From NCBI RefSeq assembly GCF_021431925.1, contig NZ_CP090371.1:124001-188000 (forward strand): a DNA stretch of 64,000 nucleotides. Direction: 5' to 3'. The stretch comes from Halobaculum sp. CBA1158 (GTDB lineage Archaea > Halobacteriota > Halobacteria > Halobacteriales > Haloferacaceae). A program made the translations under genes and the position numbers. The stretch's first letter is position 1. The number at the start of each line of letters is the position of its first letter. The notes under the pieces were generated by a model. The model made no database searches. It worked only from the letters and a program-made list of their open reading frames with translations, and was not told the DNA's origin. Shown piece by piece: positions 4,127 through 61,215 of the stretch.

Positions 4127-4429
4127 CGTGTATCGTATCGATGTGGACTCGGCTCAATAGACGCTGTGGTCGTCGAACACCGTCCTGATGGAACGACTGG
4201 GTTCAGAAATGCGATTGAGACATGACGACGCAGAACGATCAGAAAGAGTCGTACTGATACAGACAGAGGCAGACACGCGCCGATAGTCGAGTCCCGTATT
4301 CACCGGGTTCGTGTGCCGACAACGTTGCTCCATCCGTTAAGCATAATCCCAATGCCTGACATATAAGAGATAGCTGTACAGGGAAGTAGTGGTAACCAAT
4401 CCTGACAATATATTTTAATAGTGGCAACC
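4127..4429. other. Intergenic region with divergent promoters
   Basis: This 303-base A/T-rich stretch separates the divergent reductase and flavoprotein genes. ATATAAGAGA at 4361-4370 is a convincing TATA box for the flavoprotein, implying a short leader of about 40 bases. A second A/T-rich run (TATATTTTAATA, 4409-4420) lies inside that leader. No gene, tRNA or repeat was seen. Confidence 0.5.
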
Positions 4430-5866
4430 ATGGCATCGTACAAACACCCGCTCGGTATCGTCGCATCGCTCCCGGAAGAAGACGTGAAAGAGCTGGACGA
4501 GGGAATCCGCGGCGATCTCGTCCTCCCTGATTCTGAGGACTACGAGGACACCCGCAACGTCTGGAACGGGCTCGTCAACAAGTATCCCGCACTCGTCGTC
4601 CGGGCGAAAGGGGCGTCCGACGTGGCCAATGCCGTCGGCTTCGCCACCGACCACGACCTCGACCTCGCCATTCGTGGCGGGGCACACAATCAGGCAGGCA
4701 CCGCCCTCGCGGAGGGCGGGCTCGTCGTCGACCTCTCGGAAATGGACAGCGTCAGCGTCGATCCCGACGAACAGGTCGCGCGTGTCGAGCCCGGGACGCG
4801 AGCCGAGGATGTTCTCGCCGAGACCCAACCCCACGGCCTTGCGCCGCCGACTGGAAGCGCCGGTGATGTCGGCATCCCGGGCAGCACGCTGGGCGGCGGT
4901 ATCGGCTGGATGCGCTGCAAGAACGGCCTCGGCATCGATGCCCTCCGGAGCGTCGAACTCGTCACCGCCGAGGGCGAGCTGGTGAAGGCCTCGCCCGAGC
5001 ACAACGAGGATCTGTTCTGGGCGGTGCGCGGTGGCGGCGGCAACTTCGGCGTCGTCACCAACTTCGAGTTCGACCTGTACGAGGTCGGCCCGATGGTGCA
5101 GGGCCTCGGCATCTTCTACCCCGCCGACGCCGCGGAGGACGTGCTGGAAACCTACCGTGAGGTGATGGTGGATGCCCCCGAGGAGCTGACCACCATCCTC
5201 CTGCGGGGCGAGGTGCCGGGACTCCCGCCGATGCCCGACGAGTTGGCTGGCACGCCCGCGGTCGGCATCCTCGGCTGCTACACGGGCAACCCCGAGGAGG
5301 GCGAGGAGGTCATTGAGCCGCTTCGCAGCGTCGCCGAACCGTTGATCGACATGAGCGACGTGATGCCCTACGAGATGCTGCACGACCTCGGCACGCAGAT
5401 GTACCCGTGGGGCCGCAAGTACACCCATCGCTCGGTCTTCCTCGATGAGCTGACCGACGAGGCTCACGACATCATCTTGGAGCAGATGGACGAGGCCCCG
5501 ACGCCGATGGATGCGATCGGTATCTGGTCGATGGGCGGGAATATCGGTCACGGCCCGGACGCGGCCTACGCGTGGGCCGACAAGCAGTATATGATCACCA
5601 TCGAGGGCAACTGGGAGGAGACCGCGAACTCCCCCAACCTCGAATGGGCTCGTGAGACCGAGCAGTTGCTCCGCGACCTCGATGATGCCGGAGCAGAAGG
5701 TGCGTACGCGGGCTTCACCGGTGTCGAAGAACAGGAGTGGGAAGACTGGAGCGAACAGGTCTACGGCGACAACTACGACCGGCTGGCCGAGGTGAAGGCT
5801 GAGTACGACCCCGACAACGTGTTCAGCCTGAACGTCAACATCGACCCTGCTGATCGCGGCGACTAG
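4430..5866 (+). CDS. FAD-linked oxidoreductase, berberine-bridge (BBE) type
   Basis: 478 residues. The N-terminal half is an FAD-binding PCMH domain: IRGGAHNQAG (residues 81-90) includes His86, the usual covalent FAD attachment site, followed by PGTRAEDVL and GSTLGGGIGW. The C-terminal BBE motif is YGDNYDRLAEVKAEYDPDNV. At the place where bicovalent members carry Cys the sequence reads NGLGID, so FAD is probably held by His alone. Family members oxidise sugars, alcohols or amines, often with oxygen as acceptor. The start is ATG 4430 rather than GTG 4421, since MASYKHPLG is a normal lead. Its flanks are two NAD(P)-binding proteins. Confidence 0.88.
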   Translation: MASYKHPLGIVASLPEEDVKELDEGIRGDLVLPDSEDYEDTRNVWNGLVNKYPALVVRAKGASDVANAVGFATDHDLDLAIRGGAHNQAGTALAEGGLVVDLSEMDSVSVDPDEQVARVEPGTRAEDVLAETQPHGLAPPTGSAGDVGIPGSTLGGGIGWMRCKNGLGIDALRSVELVTAEGELVKASPEHNEDLFWAVRGGGGNFGVVTNFEFDLYEVGPMVQGLGIFYPADAAEDVLETYREVMVDAPEELTTILLRGEVPGLPPMPDELAGTPAVGILGCYTGNPEEGEEVIEPLRSVAEPLIDMSDVMPYEMLHDLGTQMYPWGRKYTHRSVFLDELTDEAHDIILEQMDEAPTPMDAIGIWSMGGNIGHGPDAAYAWADKQYMITIEGNWEETANSPNLEWARETEQLLRDLDDAGAEGAYAGFTGVEEQEWEDWSEQVYGDNYDRLAEVKAEYDPDNVFSLNVNIDPADRGD

Positions 5867-7080: not shown

Positions 7081-7986
7081 ATGGTCACTTACGACGGTGG
7101 TGAAGGCGTTTTGCTCGGGCTGGCGTGTGGTGACGCGCTCGGCGAACCGGTCGAAGGCTGGTCGGCCGACCGCATCGCCGCAGAGTATGGGACACTCACG
7201 GAGTTCGTTGACGGTCGCGTCCCGCCGGGCGGTCTCACCGACGACACTGAGCAGGCACTTCGGTTGGCGCGAAGCCTCGTCGAGTGTGGCGGCTTCGACC
7301 CCGACGACGCCAGCCGGCGATTCATCGAGTGGTTCGAGGGCGGCGCCGTCGGCATCGGCGGCCTGACCCGTCGCGTCCTGCGCCGGATCGTGGACGGTGA
7401 CGACTGGGAACGAGCGAGCCGCGAAAGTTGGGAAAACAGCTCGGAGGGCCGCAACGCTGGCAATGGGAGCGTGATGCGGTGTGCCCCTATTGCTGTCGCG
7501 TACGCCCACGATTTCGACGAACTGACGACCGCCAGTCGCACCTCCTCGAAGCTCACCCACTACGACCCCCGCTGTGTCTACGGCTGTGAACTCCTTAATC
7601 GGGCGATCGCAGGCTACCTCCGTGACGAACCACGGCCGCTGGAGGACGCACTCTCCGCACTTCCCGAGGAGGCCCCGGACGAACTGATCGCGGCAGTCGA
7701 ACCTGTTCCCGACGAGATCGATCCCGAGACGCTCTCGCCGACGGGATACGTCGTCGATACGCTGCAGGTGGCGACGTATCACGCGCTCACGGCCGACGAC
7801 GCCGAGTCGGCCGTCGTGAACGCCGTGAATGGGGGCGGTGACGCCGATACTATCGGCGCCGTAGCGGGTGCGATAGCAGGCGCTCGCTTCGGTGCCAGCG
7901 CTCTCCCCGACAGATGGGTGGATGAACTCGATCGCGGCGACGACCTTCGGCGACTCGGTCGCGAGCTGGCCGACCTCGATACGTGA
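7081..7986 (+). CDS. ADP-ribosylglycohydrolase family protein
   Basis: 301 residues of the ADP-ribosyl-glycohydrolase (DraG/ARH) fold. The N-terminal motif GLACGDALGEPVEGW and TDDTEQAL (residues 53-60) supply metal-binding Thr and Asp residues. The C-terminal motif GGDADTIGAVAGAIAGARFG supplies the second Asp pair that holds the two Mg ions. The family removes ADP-ribose from arginine or other acceptors, or hydrolyses related ADP-ribose compounds. The NUDIX gene 164 bases downstream could then split free ADP-ribose, suggesting a paired role in ADP-ribose turnover. Confidence 0.92.
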   Translation: MVTYDGGEGVLLGLACGDALGEPVEGWSADRIAAEYGTLTEFVDGRVPPGGLTDDTEQALRLARSLVECGGFDPDDASRRFIEWFEGGAVGIGGLTRRVLRRIVDGDDWERASRESWENSSEGRNAGNGSVMRCAPIAVAYAHDFDELTTASRTSSKLTHYDPRCVYGCELLNRAIAGYLRDEPRPLEDALSALPEEAPDELIAAVEPVPDEIDPETLSPTGYVVDTLQVATYHALTADDAESAVVNAVNGGGDADTIGAVAGAIAGARFGASALPDRWVDELDRGDDLRRLGRELADLDT

Positions 7987-8150
7987 CCATCACGCCCACT
8001 AGACGGTAACAGGGACTGAACTCGTCGTTGAGCGCGTCGCTTCCGACAAGAGAGAGTGAACAAGGAGCAGGCGGTACGGTTCGATGAGAGACACGACGAA
8101 GCCAACCCCGTCGACAGCGCACCCGACCGCTCTTGTGGTCGGTGACCTGA

Positions 8151-8552
8151 ATGTCTCGTATGGTCGAGGTTCGAGCACTCGCGACCGACGCGGTGATCGT
8201 ACTCGAAGGGGAGGTGGTGCTCCTTGAACGGGCACACTCGCCCTTCGAGGGAAGCTGGGTTCTTCCGGGTGGCCTTGTTGAACCCGACGAAACCGCACGA
8301 GAGGCCTGTGTCCGCGAGGTGAGTGAGGAGGTTGGTCTCGATGTCTCGGTTGAGGAGTTCGTCGGGCTCTACGACGATCCGGATCGGGACGAGCGGGGAA
8401 ACGTCAGCGCGGCGTACCGATGTACGCCTGTCTCCGACGACACACCGACACCGCGTAAGGAAGCACGGCAGGTGGAGACCTTCGACCCGGCTGATCTACC
8501 GGAGATGGGCTTCGACCACGAGCAGATCGTCACCGACACGCTCCTCGACTGA
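8151..8552 (+). CDS. NUDIX hydrolase
   Basis: 133 residues with a full Nudix box: GGLVEPDETAREACVREVSE followed by EVGL (residues 42-65), matching GX5EX7REUXEEXGU. The strand before it (LLERAHSPFEGSWVLPGG) is typical of ADP-ribose or nucleotide-sugar hydrolases. The protein cleaves a nucleoside diphosphate linked to another moiety; the substrate cannot be read from sequence. ATG 8151 is used; a second ATG three codons later is also possible. It lies on the same strand as the ADP-ribosylglycohydrolase. Confidence 0.9.
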   Translation: MSRMVEVRALATDAVIVLEGEVVLLERAHSPFEGSWVLPGGLVEPDETAREACVREVSEEVGLDVSVEEFVGLYDDPDRDERGNVSAAYRCTPVSDDTPTPRKEARQVETFDPADLPEMGFDHEQIVTDTLLD

Positions 8553-8652
8553 CAGGCGTATCGGCGAGTCAAATGGCTCGGTACATAGTCACCGGTCTGT
8601 CGGCTGCCCGAGTTTGTGTTTAGAGCCGGCTCTGGACACGGCGTATGACTTA

Positions 8653-8674
8653 TATTACAGTAGTATATGTAATA
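8653..8674. promoter_or_regulatory. Inverted repeat over the VapB promoter
   Basis: TATTACA (8653-8659) and TGTAATA (8668-8674) are perfect 7-bp arms with an 8-base spacer, immediately upstream of the VapB start at 8679. The spacer is A/T-rich (TATA-like). The position fits autorepression by the VapBC complex, as is usual for such modules. Confidence 0.5.
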
Positions 8675-8678
8675 CACT

Positions 8679-8930
8679 ATGGGAAGTGTGAGTTTCCGTG
8701 TCCCCGACGAGGTGAAAGCACGGATGGAAGAACACGATGAAGTAAACTGGAGTGCAGTGCTCCGTGACCACATCGAGGAGGAACTCCAGCGTCTGGAATC
8801 GAAGAATATCGCCCACGCAGTTGCGACCAGCGAGCGATTGAGCGGTGCTATCGACGCCGACGAGGTGGCGACGACGAACACGGCAGAACGGATTCGTGAG
8901 TTCCGTGATGCGCGGTACAGCGAGGAGTGA
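8679..8930 (+). CDS. vapB: VapB-type antitoxin
   Basis: 83 residues. The N-terminus (GSVSFRVPDEVKARMEEH) has the beta strand and helices of a ribbon-helix-helix DNA-binding domain. The acidic C-terminal tail would wrap and inhibit the toxin. It ends eight bases into the region just ahead of the PIN toxin start, the standard antitoxin-first order. Its symmetric promoter element suggests autoregulation. Confidence 0.85.
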   Translation: MGSVSFRVPDEVKARMEEHDEVNWSAVLRDHIEEELQRLESKNIAHAVATSERLSGAIDADEVATTNTAERIREFRDARYSEE

Positions 8931-8935
8931 CCCTG

Positions 8936-9355
8936 ATGGCCGACGTCGTCGTCGATACCAGCACTGTTGTCAAGTGGTACATTCCCGAGCAGCATCACGA
9001 ACAGGCCCGAGCACTTCGTGACGATTTCCTCAACGGCAAACACGACCTGTGCGCACCGGCACTCATGCCCTTCGAGGCCGTCAATGCACTCAAGTACAGC
9101 GGCCACTACGATGGCGAGCGCCTTCGCGAGGCTGCACACTCGCTCGATAACTACGGTATCGAACTCGTCTCGTTCGGGTCAGTCGGCCCCATCGCGGAGA
9201 TTACGAACACCGTCGATATCACAGCCTACGACGCTGCCTACGTCGCACTCGCCGTCGAACGGGATGGGACAGCCTACACCGCCGATGGGAATCTCTTGCA
9301 GGATTTAGACGGGAGTGAGTACGAGGGCACCGTTGCCCACATCAAGACCTACTGA
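8936..9355 (+). CDS. vapC: VapC-type PIN-domain toxin (RNase)
   Basis: 139 residues of a PIN domain. The conserved acids are visible: Asp7 in VVVDTS, Glu in MPFEAVNAL, Asp in AYDAAYVALA, and Asp in YTADGNLL. PIN toxins are Mg-dependent endoribonucleases acting on tRNA or rRNA, silenced by VapB. I prefer ATG 8936 to GTG 8927 because MADVVVDTS is the usual start. All catalytic residues are present, so the toxin should be active. Confidence 0.9.
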   Translation: MADVVVDTSTVVKWYIPEQHHEQARALRDDFLNGKHDLCAPALMPFEAVNALKYSGHYDGERLREAAHSLDNYGIELVSFGSVGPIAEITNTVDITAYDAAYVALAVERDGTAYTADGNLLQDLDGSEYEGTVAHIKTY

Positions 9356-54213: not shown

Positions 54214-55818
54214 CTACTCCTCGTCGCCGGGGATCCCCCGCCGCGACCCGTCCACGTCGAGGTCGATGTCGAGGTCGTCGAGCAGCTCCTCGGCCTCCGC
54301 GCGCTTCTCCTGGTGGTCGGCGAGGAACTCCTCCATCAGCGTCGCCGCCTGCTCCTTGCAGCCGCCGCAGAGGCGCTCGCCGTTCACGCACTCCTCGTAC
54401 ACCTCTTCGGCGAGCCCGTCGTCGTCGCCCGCGAGCAGGTACGCGTACAGTTCGTACACCGGACACTCGTCGGCCTTCCCGCCGAGTTCGCGCTGCTTCT
54501 CGGCCGTCTCGCGGCCGCCGGTCGTCGCGGATTTCACCTTGTCGTACCCCTCCTCCGGGTCGTCGAGCAGCGAGATGTGACTCGCCTCGATGGATGAGGA
54601 CATCTTCCCGCCCGTCAGGCCGGTCATGAAGCGGTGGTAGATGGACGAGGGCGTGTAGAAGCCGAAGCCGCCGTTGTCGACTTCCACCTCGCGCGCGAGT
54701 TCCTCGGCGGCCTCGCGGTCCAGTTCGAAGGAGTCGACGTGCGCGTCGAACACGCGTTTCTCGCCGGGCACCGCCTCGATGAGCGCCTCGAACGCCGCCG
54801 CGCTCGCGTTGCGGTCGAGGAAGCGCGTCCGGGGGCGAAGCGGCTCCATCCCGGCGTTCTCCAGCTTTTCGACGGCGCTCGCGCGGGCCGCCTCGAACTC
54901 CGCGTCGACCTCGGCCCCGCGCAGGTACTCGGCTGCGTTCTCACACCGCGGCGTCTCCGGGTCGTCGGCCCACGCCTCGCGCTCGTCGTACGCCTCCCGG
55001 ACCAGGGTTCGCTCGGGGGCGTCGAACTCGGGGCTGGCGAACGCCTCGGTCACCCTGAAGTACCGGGACTTGCGCGCGATGTCCCGCGAGAAGCGGACGT
55101 GCGGGTCCTGGTCGGGGCCGACCGGGATGACCGTCGGCTTCGGCTCGTCCAGTTGTGGGTAGAGGATGTCGGCCATCTGGGTGACGACCGACTGCATGTG
55201 CGAGACGGAGGTCTCCCCGCCGAAGCCGTAGATCGACTCGAACTCCGCGAACCGGGCGTTCGACCCCAGCTCGAAGGCGAGGTCCTGCAGCCGGCGGTTG
55301 GTGGACTGTCGGTACAGCGTCCCCTCCTCGGCGTCGAACCCGAGCGCGAGCAGCGACAGCAGGTAGTCGCGGGCGTGCTCGTCGATCTCCGCCCAGGTCA
55401 TCCCGCGGGCGGAGTGCGCCTCCAGATCCGCGATGAGGCCGTAGGTGTCTGCACCCTGCTCCTGGTGGTAGATCAGCTCGTCGAACACGAGCTTGTGGCC
55501 GATGTGGGGGTCGCCGGTGGGCATGAACCCCGAGAGCGCCGCCGCGGGCTCGTCGTTCGCGAGCGCTCGGGCGACGGCGTCGTAGCCGCGGTGACCGAAG
55601 ATGACCCCCCGTCGCATCAGGTAGTGCGGCGCGGGCACCTCGTCGATGATCTCCTCGAAGGCCTCGATCCCGAACTCCTCGAACAGCCCGCGGTAGTCGT
55701 CGACGGTCGCCGAGCCCCACGGGTCGAGCGCGACGCCAGCGCCGTCTGTTCGCGCGCGCTCCGCCTCGGTGTCGGCTCCGTCGTGACCCCGTCCGGGGCC
55801 GGTGTCGTCGTCGCTCAT
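54214..55818 (-). CDS. trpS: Tryptophanyl-tRNA synthetase
   Basis: 534 residues. PTGDPHIGHK is the HIGH motif and TGGKMSSS the KMSKS motif of class I enzymes. PVGPDQDPHVRFSRDIARK is typical of archaeal TrpS. An acidic N-terminal tail (about 30 residues) precedes the catalytic domain. The start ATG overlaps the stop of endA by ATGA, so the two are one operon. Confidence 0.96.
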   Translation of the reverse strand: MSDDDTGPGRGHDGADTEAERARTDGAGVALDPWGSATVDDYRGLFEEFGIEAFEEIIDEVPAPHYLMRRGVIFGHRGYDAVARALANDEPAAALSGFMPTGDPHIGHKLVFDELIYHQEQGADTYGLIADLEAHSARGMTWAEIDEHARDYLLSLLALGFDAEEGTLYRQSTNRRLQDLAFELGSNARFAEFESIYGFGGETSVSHMQSVVTQMADILYPQLDEPKPTVIPVGPDQDPHVRFSRDIARKSRYFRVTEAFASPEFDAPERTLVREAYDEREAWADDPETPRCENAAEYLRGAEVDAEFEAARASAVEKLENAGMEPLRPRTRFLDRNASAAAFEALIEAVPGEKRVFDAHVDSFELDREAAEELAREVEVDNGGFGFYTPSSIYHRFMTGLTGGKMSSSIEASHISLLDDPEEGYDKVKSATTGGRETAEKQRELGGKADECPVYELYAYLLAGDDDGLAEEVYEECVNGERLCGGCKEQAATLMEEFLADHQEKRAEAEELLDDLDIDLDVDGSRRGIPGDEE

Positions 55819-56906
55819 GGGGTGAGTCGCTCGACCGTCAGGTAGCTGTTCGAGTCGTCGCCGGCGAGCGCAAAAACCATTCGCTTCCGCACGCCGCCGG
55901 CCAGCCGCACGTCGAGCGCGAGCTCGCGCGGATGAAAGCGGTGGTCCGACGGCACCACGCGAACCAGCGCCTCCGAGTGGGGAAGGTCCTCGACGGAGTC
56001 GACTGCGTCGTAGGTGCGGAAGTCCGCCCCGAACTTGTAGCCGGTCTTCGGGACGACCCCGCGATCGCGAAGCGCCCGGTAGACGGACAGCCGGCGGTCG
56101 AACCGGTTGCCCTCGACGCTCCGACCGCGTTCGATCACCGCGTCTGCGCCGAGGTCGACCGCGCCGCGGGCGGCGAGGTCCGCGGCCTCGACCAGCGACA
56201 GCTGAAGCGCGTCCACGTCGGCGTCGTCGCGTCCGGAGACGGGCTGACCGTAGAACGCGGAGGCGTACAGTCGCTTCGGGGGCGACCAGCAGACGACGCG
56301 GTCGTCGAACAGGTCGGCCTCCAGCCCGGTCGGGAGGTCGTACTCGCTCGCGCCCGCGAAGCCGCCGCCGGCCGAACACGCGAAGTACGACACCTCGCTC
56401 TCCTCGTCGACGACCGCGAGCGTCGTCCCGCGGAGGTCGCCCGCGGGCAGCTCCTCGCGCTCGCCGGCGACGCGCACCCGGTGGGCGACCGGCCCGCCGG
56501 GCTTCTCGCCGCGCTCGAACACGAGGATGTCCGCGTCGCCGTCGCGCTCCTCGGCGTCGCGGTCGCCGGCGCTCCCGTCGTCGTCGCTCCCCGCTCGGGA
56601 GCCGCCCCCGGTCCCCGGCCATCCCTCGCGTGCGGGGACGAGATAGAACCCCCGCTCGCGCAGGTCGGCGTAGACGAGAAACCGGGCGGCGAAGCGGTCG
56701 CCGGCGGCGACGCTGTCGCCGAAGAACGCTCGAAAGTCCATCCCCGACACCGTCTCGATGTCGCCGCGATACAGCAGGTGGGCCGCCTCCACGCGCGCGA
56801 GGGTCACCTCCGGGCCGTCGGCCCGTCCGTACCCCCGGGCGTCGTGGAAGCGCTGGCGGGCGTCGCCCCCGGCGCGGACGACGTCGCCGTCGAGTGTCGC
56901 ATTCAT
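55815..56906 (-). CDS. endA: tRNA-splicing endonuclease (fused two-repeat form)
   Basis: 363 residues from ATG 56906. Length fits the archaeal alpha2 form with two fused repeats. The C-terminal catalytic repeat contains KTGYKFGADFRTYD (Tyr), LPHSEALVRVVP (His) and VRKRMVFALA (Lys), the cleavage triad. It cuts introns from pre-tRNA at bulge-helix-bulge sites. It lies directly upstream of trpS; haloarchaeal tRNA-Trp has an intron, giving functional sense to this pairing. Confidence 0.93.
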   Translation of the reverse strand: MNATLDGDVVRAGGDARQRFHDARGYGRADGPEVTLARVEAAHLLYRGDIETVSGMDFRAFFGDSVAAGDRFAARFLVYADLRERGFYLVPAREGWPGTGGGSRAGSDDDGSAGDRDAEERDGDADILVFERGEKPGGPVAHRVRVAGEREELPAGDLRGTTLAVVDEESEVSYFACSAGGGFAGASEYDLPTGLEADLFDDRVVCWSPPKRLYASAFYGQPVSGRDDADVDALQLSLVEAADLAARGAVDLGADAVIERGRSVEGNRFDRRLSVYRALRDRGVVPKTGYKFGADFRTYDAVDSVEDLPHSEALVRVVPSDHRFHPRELALDVRLAGGVRKRMVFALAGDDSNSYLTVERLTP

Positions 56907-57021: not shown

Positions 57022-57129
57022 GCGTCGTCGGGGGCGACTGCGTCGTCGGGGGCGACTGCGTCGTCGGGGGCGACTGCGTCGTCGGGGGCGACTGCGTCGT
57101 CGGGGGCGACTGCGTCGTCGGGGGCGACT
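57022..57129 (+). repeat. Six perfect copies of an 18-bp tandem repeat
   Basis: GCGTCGTCGGGGGCGACT is repeated six times without change, then degenerates (GCGCCGCCACC). It sits between the zinc-finger gene and endA. The repeat length is a multiple of three but is outside both genes. It could vary in number between strains and could influence transcription of endA. Confidence 0.9.
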
Positions 57130-57149
57130 GCGCCGCCACCGCGCCGGGA

Positions 57150-57929
57150 TCAGGGGCCGACGTTCGGCTCGGCGGGTCGGTCGCGCTCGCAGGTACCGTC
57201 GAGACAGCGCACGCCCGTCGCCGTCTCGAAGCGCGGCAGGCCGCAGGCGCACTCGCCGGCGAACGTGCCCGACGGCACGGAGAAGGCCGTCTCGCAGTCC
57301 GGATAGCCGTCGCACCCGAGGAACGCCCGGCCGCGGTGCTCCCGGACGCGCAGGTCGCGCCCGCAGTCGGGGCAGTCGAACCGCCGGTCGAGCACCCCTC
57401 GAACCGCCTCGGTCAGCGACTCACACGCGTAGTCGACGCACAGCCGGAGCTTCTCACCGCGCGCGACGGTCATCGTCGGAAGCCCGCAGTCGTCGCAGGT
57501 GTCGTCGTCGTGGACCGTCGCGCCCGGCGGGAGGCCGTACGCGTCGCCACAGCCCAGACAGACCACGTCGCCGCCGGCCCGCACCAGCGCCGCCCGGCAG
57601 TCGGGGTCGGGGCACTCGCCGACCGGGACGCCGGCGGCGGATATCGGTCGCTCGACGACCTCGCCGGCGTCGTGTGAGCGCACTGAGAGCCGTTGGTCGC
57701 CGTCGCGGGCGGTGACCGCGAAGCCGTCGTCGTCGGCCTCGACGGTGAGCGAGTCGGGTCTGGTGAGCCACGCGACGGGCTGGTAGCCGGCGCGGTCGTG
57801 GACGAGGACCGTGCGGTCGGGCTTGGCGAGGACGACGACCCGCCCGCGATGGATGCGCTCGTCGCTGGTCGTCGCCGTCTCGAACCGGGTCGTGCAGTCG
57901 CCCGCGAGGATCGTCGTGGTCTGCGACAT
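57150..57929 (-). CDS. NucS-N-terminal-like domain with topoisomerase-type zinc ribbons
   Basis: 259 residues. The first 95 (GRVVVLAKPDRTVLVHDRAG, YQPVAWLTRPDSLTVEADDD) resemble the DNA-binding N-terminal domain of NucS/EndoMS. Four-cysteine ribbons follow: CPDPDC...CLGC, CDDC...C, and CPDCGRDLRVREHRGRAFLG then CDGYPDC (topoisomerase I-type). The nuclease domain of NucS is absent. It probably binds damaged or single-stranded DNA. Function unknown. Confidence 0.75.
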   Translation of the reverse strand: MSQTTTILAGDCTTRFETATTSDERIHRGRVVVLAKPDRTVLVHDRAGYQPVAWLTRPDSLTVEADDDGFAVTARDGDQRLSVRSHDAGEVVERPISAAGVPVGECPDPDCRAALVRAGGDVVCLGCGDAYGLPPGATVHDDDTCDDCGLPTMTVARGEKLRLCVDYACESLTEAVRGVLDRRFDCPDCGRDLRVREHRGRAFLGCDGYPDCETAFSVPSGTFAGECACGLPRFETATGVRCLDGTCERDRPAEPNVGP

Positions 57930-58078: not shown

Positions 58079-58930
58079 GTGAGCGACTCATCCGGCGGCG
58101 ACGCGGGCGACGCCCGGAGCGGCACCGACTCCCCCGACGCCACCGACGCGGCGGACACGACCGACTCGGCGCGGGTCGATAGCTCGGACTCCGCGCCCGG
58201 GACCGAACAGGCGGTCGCGACCGACGGCCCGCCGGTCGTCGTCTGCCTCGATATGGACGGCGTCCTCGTCGACTCCGAGGACTACTGGCACGCCGCCGAA
58301 CGCGAGGAGATCCTGCCGCGCGTGCTCGCGGACGGCACCCCCGTGCCCGACCTCGACGAGATCACGGGGATGTACTACGGCGAGATCTACGACTACCTCG
58401 CGGAGCGCTACGAGCCGACCGTCGACAAGGCGGCGTTCATGCGACTGTACGACGAGGCGGCCGAGTCGATCTACGGCGACCGAGTGGCCCTCCTGGCGGG
58501 GGCCGGCGACTTCGTCGCCGACCTCCGGGAGCGCGGCGTTCCGGTCGCGCTCGTCTCCTCGTCGCCGCGCGACTGGATCGAGACGGTGGTCGATCGGTTC
58601 GACCTCGCGTTCGACGGGATCTGCCCGGCCGAGGAGTTCGACGGGCCCGGCAAGCCTGAACCGGGGCTGTACGAGGCGGCGATCCGCGACCTGGGCGGGG
58701 TGCCGGACCGCGCGGTCGCCGTCGAGGACTCCGAGAACGGGGTGGCCGCGGCCGCCCGGTCGGGCGCGTACACGATCGCCGTCCGCGACGACCACAACGC
58801 GGACACCGACCTCTCGGCGGCCGACGAGGTGGTCGACCGCGACGACCCGGCGGCCGTGTTCGCCGCGGTTCGTCACTCGATGCGGACGATCCGCGAGTCC
58901 GTCTCGGGCAACAGCGGCAGTTCCGGATAG
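58079..58930 (+). CDS. HAD-superfamily phosphatase/phosphoglucomutase-like
   Basis: 283 residues from GTG 58079. About 50 acidic low-complexity residues precede motif I CLDMDGVLVDSE. Motif II is VALVSSSPRDW, Lys is in GPGKPEPGLYE and motif IV is VEDSENGVAAA, the ENG form of beta-phosphoglucomutase-like HADs. Its end overlaps the convergent helicase by 58 bases. Confidence 0.88.
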   Translation: MSDSSGGDAGDARSGTDSPDATDAADTTDSARVDSSDSAPGTEQAVATDGPPVVVCLDMDGVLVDSEDYWHAAEREEILPRVLADGTPVPDLDEITGMYYGEIYDYLAERYEPTVDKAAFMRLYDEAAESIYGDRVALLAGAGDFVADLRERGVPVALVSSSPRDWIETVVDRFDLAFDGICPAEEFDGPGKPEPGLYEAAIRDLGGVPDRAVAVEDSENGVAAAARSGAYTIAVRDDHNADTDLSAADEVVDRDDPAAVFAAVRHSMRTIRESVSGNSGSSG

Positions 58931-61215
58931 ACCACCTCCACCTCGTAGCGCATCTCCTCCTCGTCGGGAGCGCCGAACACGCCGACCGGGACGGTCGTCT
59001 CGTCCGAGAGATACAGCGTTTTCTGGGTCATCTCGACTCCGTTGGCGGTGACGCGGACCCCGGCGCGGGCGCTCCCGCCGACGTTGCGGACGGTCACCTC
59101 CAGCATCTCGTTTTCGCCGACGCCGATCGCGTCCGGGAACGCGCCCCACTCGACGACGGCGTTCGGGAGGTCCTCCGCCTGCCGGATCACGCGCTCGGCG
59201 ACCCCCTCGGACAGGCCCGCGCGCGCGAGTCGCTCCGCGCCCGCCGCGATCACGTCCGCGGGGGTGGTGAGCCCGCCCGCAGACAGCGACTCCGCGCGCC
59301 CCTCGCCGACGCCCTCGATGGCGGTGAGGCCGACGGCCTCGCGCTTGACGCCGTGCTCGACGCGGGCCTCGACCCGGCGGACCAGGTTCGCCGCCCGCGG
59401 ACCGGCGACGGCGTCGGCGAACTCCCGCAGCGCCGCGAGCAGCCGCAGCGCGTTCTGCCGGATGATCCACGCGTCCGAGCGCAGGTCGGAGGGCATCGAC
59501 CCGCGGACGGCGGCGTGGAGGATCGCGAGCACCTTTCGGTTGCCGCCCTCCAGGTCGGTCTCCACGTCCGAGAGCACGCGGTCGACGGCGTCGGCCTCCG
59601 ATGAGCGCGCGGAGGCGGAGTCGAACTCGGCGGCCGAGGCGACGGCGCGGAGGACGGCGCTCTCGTCGACCGTCTCCCGGTCGGCGAGGCCGGCGAAGCG
59701 CTCGGCCGTCTCCATGCGGAGATAGTACTTCGAGGCGAGTCGCCCCAACGTGGTGGCCTCGATCCCGAGTCGCTCGTCGGTCTCGACGAACCCGCGGTCG
59801 ACGAGTGAGTTCAGCGTGTCGCGCACGCGGTCGCGGACGCCCTCGAAGTCGTACGCCTCCGGTTCGGTGCCGGCACGGACGTAGTAGAAGGTGGTCTCCA
59901 GCCAGTCCATCACGTCGTCGAGTCCCGAGATCGTGCCGAGCGCGATCTCGGCGTTCAGGTGGGAGTCGAGGTCCTCCGCGAGTCGCGATTCGATCTCCTT
60001 GCCCTCCCGGAGGAGGCTCCGGTACTTGTCCGCGTCCGACCGGTCGCAGACGACCCAGCCGTACCCCACGTCGTCGTAGCCGGGTCGCCCCGCCCGGCCG
60101 AGCATCTGGAGCACGTCCAGCGGGCTGATGTCGACTTCGCCCTCCAGCGGATCGTGGTACTTCGTGTCTCGGATGACGACGCACCGGGCGGGGAGGTTCA
60201 CCCCCCACGCGAGCGTCGAGGTCGAAAAGAGGAGCTGGATCTTTCCCTCTTTGAACCACTTCTCCACCCTGTCTTTGTCGTTCTTCGAGAGTCCGGCGTG
60301 GTGGAAGGCGACGCCGTCGACGACGGAGTGGCGCAGCGTGTCGTTGTCGAGTTCCTTCGCGGCGGTGTGGAAGTCGTAGTCGCCGCGCGCGCCCATCTCC
60401 AGGTCGCGCTCGCCCACCTCGTCGCGGGCCTTCTTCGCCGCCATCACGGTGTCCTGGCGCGAGGAGACGAACACGAGCGCCTGCCCCTCCTCGCGGATGT
60501 GCGGCTCCGCGAGGTCCAAGGCGCGATAGAGGCGGCGGTACTTGTCGGCGAAGGAGTTGTCGCCGTGGGTGTACGTCTTCACGCCCGTCTCCAGGTCGAC
60601 GGGGCGGTACTCGTCGCCGAACTGGAAGGTGGTCTCCGGCGGGGCGTCGAGCCACTCGGCCACGTCGTCGACGTTGGGCATCGTCGCCGACAGCGCGACG
60701 ACCCGGGGGTCACAGAGGCGGCGCAGGCGGGAGACGGTGACCTCCAGCACCGCGCCGCGCTTGTCGGAGTCGAGCAGGTGAACCTCGTCGATGACGCAGC
60801 AGTCGACGTCGTTGATGAAGTCGTAGCGCGCGGACTCGTGTTTCCGCGTGGCCGAGTCGGTCTTCTCGGGCGTCATCACGAGGATGTCAGCGCGCTCGGC
60901 GCGACGGGGGTTGAGGTCGCGCTCGCCGGTGACGACGTACACGGAGTAGCCGAGTTCCTCGAAGCGGTCCCACTCGGCCTCCTTCTCGTTCGTCAGGGCG
61001 CGCAGGGGGGCGATGAAGAGGGCTGTGCCGTCGTCCTTAAGCGTCTCACAGATCGCGAGTTCCGCGAGCGCGGTCTTGCCGGAGGCCGTGGGCGCGGCCG
61101 CGACGACGTTGTCGTCGCGCTCGAGGATGGCCGGCAGCGCCTCCCGCTGCATCCGGTTGAACTCCTCGAACCCGAACGCGTCGGCGAACTCCGGGACGGC
61201 GTCTGCGACTTTCAT
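58873..61215 (-). CDS. Hel308/Ski2-type DNA helicase
   Basis: 780 residues. Walker A is AAPTASGKTALAELA, DEVH box is VIDEVHLLDSDKR, motif III SATMPN, motif IV-VI FHHAGLSKNDKDRVE and QMLGRAGRPGYDD. A winged-helix and ratchet domain follow, then a helix-hairpin-helix region (AIEGVGEGRAESLSAGGLTT). The last 110 residues form a beta domain (VEVTVRNVGGSARAGVRVT-like) which is not usual in classical Hel308. It unwinds forked DNA at stalled replication; Haloarchaea have more than one such helicase. Confidence 0.9.
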   Translation of the reverse strand: MKVADAVPEFADAFGFEEFNRMQREALPAILERDDNVVAAAPTASGKTALAELAICETLKDDGTALFIAPLRALTNEKEAEWDRFEELGYSVYVVTGERDLNPRRAERADILVMTPEKTDSATRKHESARYDFINDVDCCVIDEVHLLDSDKRGAVLEVTVSRLRRLCDPRVVALSATMPNVDDVAEWLDAPPETTFQFGDEYRPVDLETGVKTYTHGDNSFADKYRRLYRALDLAEPHIREEGQALVFVSSRQDTVMAAKKARDEVGERDLEMGARGDYDFHTAAKELDNDTLRHSVVDGVAFHHAGLSKNDKDRVEKWFKEGKIQLLFSTSTLAWGVNLPARCVVIRDTKYHDPLEGEVDISPLDVLQMLGRAGRPGYDDVGYGWVVCDRSDADKYRSLLREGKEIESRLAEDLDSHLNAEIALGTISGLDDVMDWLETTFYYVRAGTEPEAYDFEGVRDRVRDTLNSLVDRGFVETDERLGIEATTLGRLASKYYLRMETAERFAGLADRETVDESAVLRAVASAAEFDSASARSSEADAVDRVLSDVETDLEGGNRKVLAILHAAVRGSMPSDLRSDAWIIRQNALRLLAALREFADAVAGPRAANLVRRVEARVEHGVKREAVGLTAIEGVGEGRAESLSAGGLTTPADVIAAGAERLARAGLSEGVAERVIRQAEDLPNAVVEWGAFPDAIGVGENEMLEVTVRNVGGSARAGVRVTANGVEMTQKTLYLSDETTVPVGVFGAPDEEEMRYEVEVVYPELPLLPETDSRIVRIE

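Follow-up and report, generated by a model that had tools for sequence, protein, structure and literature searches.

A 259-aa protein that combines a NucS_N domain with four zinc ribbons, here labelled NZR, was found in a 64,000-nucleotide stretch of the Halobaculum sp. CBA1158 genome (contig NZ_CP090371.1, positions 124,001 to 188,000; hereafter the window), and with moderate confidence, on comparisons of sequence and gene order, we favour the reading that NZR is an accessory subunit of a haloarchaeal single-cassette helicase of the Brr2/ASCC3 type. The NZR open reading frame fills window positions 57150-57929 exactly on the minus strand, with the ATG at 57929 and the stop codon ending at 57150. 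The parts of NZR and the neighbouring genes are given in Table 1.

Table 1. Parts of NZR and neighbouring genes, in window coordinates
Feature	Coordinates	Strand	Basis
Tryptophanyl-tRNA synthetase (TrpS), after EndA	54214..55818	-	Neighbourhood comparison
tRNA-splicing endonuclease EndA, downstream of NZR, conserved neighbour	55815..56906	-	Neighbourhood comparison
NZR gene, 259 aa, NucS_N and four zinc ribbons	57150..57929	-	ORF, Pfam, structure model
NucS_N (PH-like) domain, NZR residues 1-99	57633..57929	-	Pfam and structure
Zinc ribbon 1, NZR residues 104-130	57540..57620	-	Cys106/111/124/127
Zinc ribbon 2, NZR residues 143-171	57417..57503	-	Cys145/148/164/169
Zinc ribbon 3, topoisomerase C4 type, NZR residues 184-218	57276..57380	-	Cys186/189/206/212; Pfam Zn_ribbon_Top1
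Zinc ribbon 4, NZR residues 225-249	57183..57257	-	Cys227/229/242/247
HAD-family hydrolase between helicase and NZR	58079..58930	+	ORF list, conserved-neighbour comparison
Single-cassette Ski2-like helicase of the Brr2/ASCC3/Slh1 type, 780 aa, proposed partner of NZR	58873..61215	-	Sequence, model, tree

Pfam searches placed NucS_N (PF21003) on NZR residues 7-87 (E 2.9e-7, 30.8 bits against a cut-off of 23.9) and Zn_ribbon_Top1 on residues 185-218 (E 3.4e-10, 40 bits against a cut-off of 32); the four ribbons were called from the cysteine pattern and only the third scored above a Pfam cut-off. No match to NucS_C was obtained for NZR up to E 10, and the strict NucS_C core motif occurred in 0 of 106 NZR sequences while the genome's own NucS, a canonical protein with both domains encoded separately from NZR, has a matching core. 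The proposal of the initial annotation that the nuclease half of a NucS-like protein had been replaced by several zinc ribbons was thus borne out. The mean net charge of NZR is -3.6 for the N-terminal domain and -14 for the acidic tail, and haloarchaeal proteins are usually acidic.

The AlphaFold2 model of NZR, built on a 34-sequence alignment (mean pLDDT 91.4), indicated that the predicted structure of residues 1-99 superposes on P. abyssi NucS 2vld_B with a Z of 11.3 and an rmsd of 2.3 Å over 91 aligned residues, and on EndoMS with a Z of 10.7, while the best other fold reached a Z of 6.1. The first five Foldseek ranks were all NucS/EndoMS (E 1.1e-4 to 2.3e-4). Structure prediction against NucS, which had been set beforehand as the refuting test, gave no other fold for residues 1-95, and together with the Pfam score it confirms a NucS-like N-terminal domain.

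A simulation paper on EndoMS (PMC6829318) describes a flipped base that is stacked on by Tyr41 and Trp77 and bonded by Asn76 and Trp77, with further DNA contacts that include Arg44, Arg72 and Arg98. Comparison of these sites in 100 NZR rows, which are redundant and in part come from the same organisms as the named loci below, showed that Trp77 was retained in all 100 while Asn76, Arg72 and Arg98 were retained in none, being replaced by Ala in 86 rows, by Tyr in 100 and by Ala in 100, respectively; the Tyr41 position was Tyr in 3 rows and Phe in 56, and the Arg44 position was a gap in 94. NZR therefore resembles NucS/EndoMS in its PH-like N-terminal domain, its Pfam NucS_N match and the kept tryptophan, and differs from it by lacking NucS_C and the three lost residues and by carrying four zinc ribbons. 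Since most of the base-reading residues of EndoMS are gone, the NucS_N domain would act as a grip on nucleic acid, and NZR is unlikely to read mismatches as EndoMS does. From the earlier interpretation, namely a DNA-end or mismatch recognition factor that recruits others, the fold, the ribbon swap and a probable nucleic-acid-binding factor with a partner have held, while mismatch recognition of the EndoMS type has not. A stand-alone sensor of DNA ends or mismatches that recruits other repair factors would agree with the NucS_N fold, the tryptophan present in every row and the topoisomerase-type ribbon, but the changed flipped-base and arginine contacts, and two kinds of fusion that point to a definite partner (described below), make such a sensor improbable.

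NZR was detected at E 1e-12 in 382 of the 391 genomes of the haloarchaeal class, representing 79 of 84 genera, and the closest named sequences among the relatives listed, from which the window's own record was possibly left out, were those of Halobaculum species (83%). When 295 genomes sampled from the phylum were searched at the same threshold, 72 matched the NZR profile, 70 of them belonging to the same order; the remaining two matches covered the ribbons only (G400) and the N-domain only (G428), the latter in a 279-aa frame which we take to be an ordinary NucS. This threshold missed two genomes with a weaker NucS_N (G415 and G422), and further weak relatives may have been missed as well. 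No match was found at E 1e-5 among 72,556 plasmid records and 50,697 phage records, which argues against NZR as a plasmid or phage gene. The NZR profile match was split in two pieces in six genomes (G060, G082, G154, G191, G230 and G272), possibly frameshifts or decaying copies. Among the papers listed in the literature searches, none described the NZR architecture, the gene for which may sit unnamed in large data sets, and six search terms were all absent from 'The core and unique proteins of haloarchaea' (PMC3287961).

Alignment of 106 different NZR sequences showed Cys12 and each of the 12 cysteines in ribbons 2-4 to be invariant (106 of 106), and this invariance together with the distribution in the class argues that the architecture is not due to chance. 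Ribbon 1, counted by the columns of Cys106, Cys124 and Cys127, was retained in 84 sequences and lost in 22, mainly in Haloferax, Halobellus and Halogeometricum; the Cys111 column holds Cys in only 51 of 106 owing to a two-residue alignment insertion. The loci in which ribbon 1 has no cysteines left are L018, L022, L063, L064, L065, L069, L071, L072, L076, L079, L085, L093, L096, L098, L101, L105-L107, L109, L114, L116 and L119. These sequences keep the segment itself, which in Haloferax and its relatives may now be a plain beta module.

The distribution of NucS bears on a further reading, in which NZR restrains or guides NucS, either by binding its substrates or through N-domain pairing with it. 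NucS_C was matched in 368 of the 391 class genomes, in 367 of them above the cut-off, so NZR and NucS occur together in most genomes, and the shared N-domain fold is that of the NucS dimerisation domain as described in PMC8228993. NZR nevertheless persists in 17 of the 20 genomes named as lacking NucS (the exceptions being G026, G031 and G033; 3 more NucS-less genomes stand outside that list), and NucS is therefore ruled out as a required partner. Regulation of NucS by NZR is made very improbable, the least probable of the readings weighed here, by this retention, by the lack of conservation of the flipped-base pocket, by the identity of only 17-19% between the window NZR N-domain and NucS, and by the association of the ribbons with a helicase in a class whose seven genomes gave no NucS_N match. 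No loose PCNA-binding motif was found in the last 25 residues of 106 NZR sequences, the pattern used also missing the genome's own NucS.

Ribbon 3 of NZR resembles the corresponding part of TopA, being of the Zn_ribbon_Top1 type and sharing 58% identity across 36 residues with the genome's own TopA. No type IA topoisomerase catalytic domain was found in NZR with Pfam or NCBIfam up to E 10, the matches being limited to residues 170-223. In another class of the phylum, represented by one genus (G400 and G623-G628), all seven genomes have a stretch that matches the ribbon part of the NZR profile (E 1.4e-36 to 1.1e-38), and in six of them the ribbons are found at the C-terminus of a helicase, in one frame of 972-1046 aa and without NucS_N. 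The six helicase-ribbon loci contain 16 cysteines with identical spacing, and in G628, where the contig ends inside the gene, one frame spans the last ~320 aa of the helicase together with the ribbons. This helicase-fused tail is much closer to NZR than to TopA: the tail of G400 was 36% identical to NZR over 143 aa (E 6e-18), while against TopA of the window's genome it gave only E 0.1. NucS_N was matched in none of the seven genomes of this class, which are 61-90% complete. Ribbons 1-2 of the G400 fusion matched NZR ribbons 3-4 weakly (33% over 67 aa, E 0.001), and by its sequence the NZR array looks like a doubled two-ribbon unit.

In a third class, two of four genomes (G415 and G422) encode a single protein of ~1000 aa, without ribbons, in which NucS_N and HRDC come after the helicase. 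The fused NucS_N domains scored 29.4 and 31.2 bits against the Pfam cut-off of 23.9, the HRDC domain was also above its cut-off, and identity between the NucS_N of NZR and those of the fused proteins was 24-27% on average; in the latter, Tyr41 and Asn76 are retained while Trp77 is replaced by Tyr. It follows from both kinds of fusion that each half of NZR is, elsewhere, separately tethered to the same helicase and at the same end. Zinc ribbons are promiscuous domains, and for this reason the ribbon fusion can mislead.

In the window the same kind of helicase is the next same-strand gene upstream of NZR, with an opposite-strand HAD gene, probably outside the NZR-helicase system, intervening. 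Among the named loci, which are the best 80 of 242 and hence lean to close relatives, 62 have the helicase upstream of NZR in the same orientation, at a distance of 150 bases or less in 13, and none has it on the other strand; it was unseen in 18, of which 4 have less than 5 kb upstream. Downstream of NZR, EndA was found in 41 and TrpS in 37 of these 80. Of 17 further NZR loci, all but one from other families, 8 have the helicase on the same strand and 1 has it on the opposite strand, and in 8 it was unseen; EndA was downstream in 16. EndA may be co-transcribed with NZR. Beside the helicase-ribbon fusion of the other class, a divergently transcribed EndA was identified at 5 of the 6 loci and TrpS at 3. 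The NZR-EndA spacer of the possible operon contains an 18-base tandem repeat with six perfect copies (copy number 6.2) at window positions 57022-57132.

The helicase was found at E 1e-150 in 389 of the 391 class genomes, and since the two genomes without it (G031 and G033) are also without NZR, all 382 NZR-bearing genomes have the helicase. Seven genomes carry the helicase without an NZR match (G026, G032, G196, G199, G303, G312 and G376), and in G376 a contig end is located inside the helicase gene. Co-occurrence is a weak test because both genes are near-universal, and the data represent few independent events because the genomes are related. At locus L162 (G312; positions 4321-5045) NZR is missing between the HAD gene and EndA, its place being taken by an unrelated 185-aa frame, presumably a helix-turn-helix protein; at L160 (G199; positions 7331-9004) an opposite-strand frame of 558 aa, which we take to be a right-handed beta-helix protein, is found at NZR's place between the helicase and EndA.

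Analysis of the window helicase revealed DEAD, Helicase_C, SNRNP200 winged helix, Sec63 and HHH parts and a C-terminal beta-sandwich, with SNRNP200_wHTH, Sec63 and HHH_5 above the Pfam cut-off. The protein is one cassette, not two in tandem. It is of the Brr2/ASCC3/Slh1 type and distinct from the Hel308 of the same genome. On PRK02362 it scored 400 bits against a cut-off of 887, while the genome's own Hel308 scored 1162; the NCBIfam Hel308 equivalog (cut-off 1200) proves nothing because the genome's own Hel308, with 546 bits, falls below it as does the window helicase with 271. A tree of 20 rows separated the five fused helicases and the window helicase from nine Hel308-type paralogues at 100/100. 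Scores of PDB sequences do not by themselves sharply part Hel308 from ASCC3/Brr2, since per cassette phmmer gave ~271 bits for ASCC3 and Brr2 and 234 for Hel308 2p6r (the E of ~1e-158 for ASCC3/Brr2 sums two cassettes).

The model of the window helicase (pLDDT 79, weaker in the RecA part) places the beta-sandwich at residues 685-778. The best Z values were 31.5 for Brr2, 28.8 for Slh1 and 28.6 for ASCC3, with rmsd of 6.7, 5.5 and 6.4 Å, respectively, and the cassettes of all three align to the model up to residue 777-779, while the alignment of solved Hel308 chains (Z 27.1-30.0) stops at residue 645-684, short of the beta-sandwich. As the Z values are close, the Brr2/ASCC3 typing rests on the full-length cover and not on Z. 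The window helicase shares with Hel308/HELQ, the partners of which are RPA, Hjc and PINA, a Ski2-like core with winged helix, ratchet and HHH, and differs by its PRK02362 score below the cut-off, its separate position in the tree and its extra C-terminal beta-sandwich, and an earlier identification of the proposed partner as Hel308 was therefore dropped. According to PMC9938168, the Sec63 unit of Slh1 is composed of ratchet, HhH and FN3. None of the papers listed in the literature searches described this helicase as a Brr2/ASCC3 type in archaea.

The genome of the window encodes two more Ski2-like helicases (G000:C1:2849194-2850759 and G000:C1:2390142-2391719), one of which passes PRK02362 with 1162 bits while the other is under the cut-off (751 vs 887); haloarchaea may thus have a second, divergent Hel308. 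HVO_0011 to HVO_0014 were considered as H. volcanii locus tags and dropped; HVO_0014 is Hel308 and HVO_0013 is cgi121.

In the favoured reading, the ribbons and/or NucS_N would attach to the helicase at or close to its C-terminal Sec63 end and keep nucleic acid in place there, which would aid loading and unwinding; in haloarchaea the ribbons and NucS_N would act in trans, while in the fused forms one covalently attached half would suffice. The initial annotation had also supposed a factor working with something else, and this agrees with our reading, in that NZR probably binds nucleic acid and its likely partner is the Brr2/ASCC3-type helicase next door. A parallel may be drawn with TRIP4, for which PMC10076317 describes a zinc finger docked on ASCC3, an ASCH domain placed for the substrate and stimulation of unwinding. 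As proposed here, NZR would resemble TRIP4 (ASC-1) with ASCC3, and Rqt4 with Slh1, in being a zinc module and a nucleic-acid-binding domain that serve a Brr2/ASCC3-type cassette. It differs in giving no Pfam match to the C2HC5-type zinc finger or to ASCH up to E 10, and the archaeal helicase differs from ASCC3 and Slh1 in having one cassette, not two; NZR may thus work like TRIP4 without being a homologue of it. More tentatively, and with less confidence than we place in the accessory role, the system could be the equivalent, in haloarchaea and their relatives, of the motor module formed by ASCC3 and TRIP4, with its grips assembled in three ways: in trans, by ribbon fusion and by NucS_N-HRDC fusion.

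A rival reading is a role on RNA, either with NZR and the helicase as an archaeal counterpart of the Slh1/ASCC3 ribosome-rescue machinery or in the processing of tRNA together with EndA. In its favour, Brr2, Slh1 and ASCC3 all match the helicase cassette from end to end, and EndA and TrpS are the conserved neighbours of NZR in the counts given above, EndA also lying beside the helicase-ribbon fusion. The closeness of EndA and TrpS may, however, reflect only the intron of tRNA-Trp, which is a possible sole cause of their proximity, and the zinc finger of TRIP4/Rqt4 was not among the Pfam matches of NZR. HRDC, present in the NucS_N fusion, is typical of RecQ DNA helicases and also occurs in RNase D. 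Rqt4, a subunit of the yeast RQT complex, contains a zinc finger (PMC9938168), but NucS_N is known as a DNA-binding domain (PMC8228993) and E. coli topoisomerase I has C-terminal domains that bind ssDNA (PMC4678816). DNA is the likelier substrate because NucS_N, the topoisomerase-type ribbon and HRDC all point to it, and we weakly suggest branched or single-stranded DNA in repair or recombination as the substrate of NZR. On account of the EndA-TrpS neighbourhood and the likeness to Slh1 and Brr2, an RNA or ribosome role, while rather unlikely, has an appreciable chance and is the strongest competitor of the accessory-subunit reading.

If NZR is a helicase accessory subunit, NucS_N would be a helicase accessory domain besides being a mismatch-nuclease domain, and its use without a nuclease bears on the share of that domain in mismatch repair. 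A protein that is present in 382 of 391 genomes, and for which no described function turned up in the searches made, gains a specific and testable partner. The question is tractable at the bench, since the two genes are adjacent in Haloferax species, a genus whose member H. volcanii is genetically amenable. As a single-cassette relative of human ASCC3 and Brr2, the helicase could show the role of such helicases before the eukaryotic cassette doubling, and on the more tentative reading the pair would constitute a core haloarchaeal repair or RNA-surveillance machine that has so far gone unnoticed.
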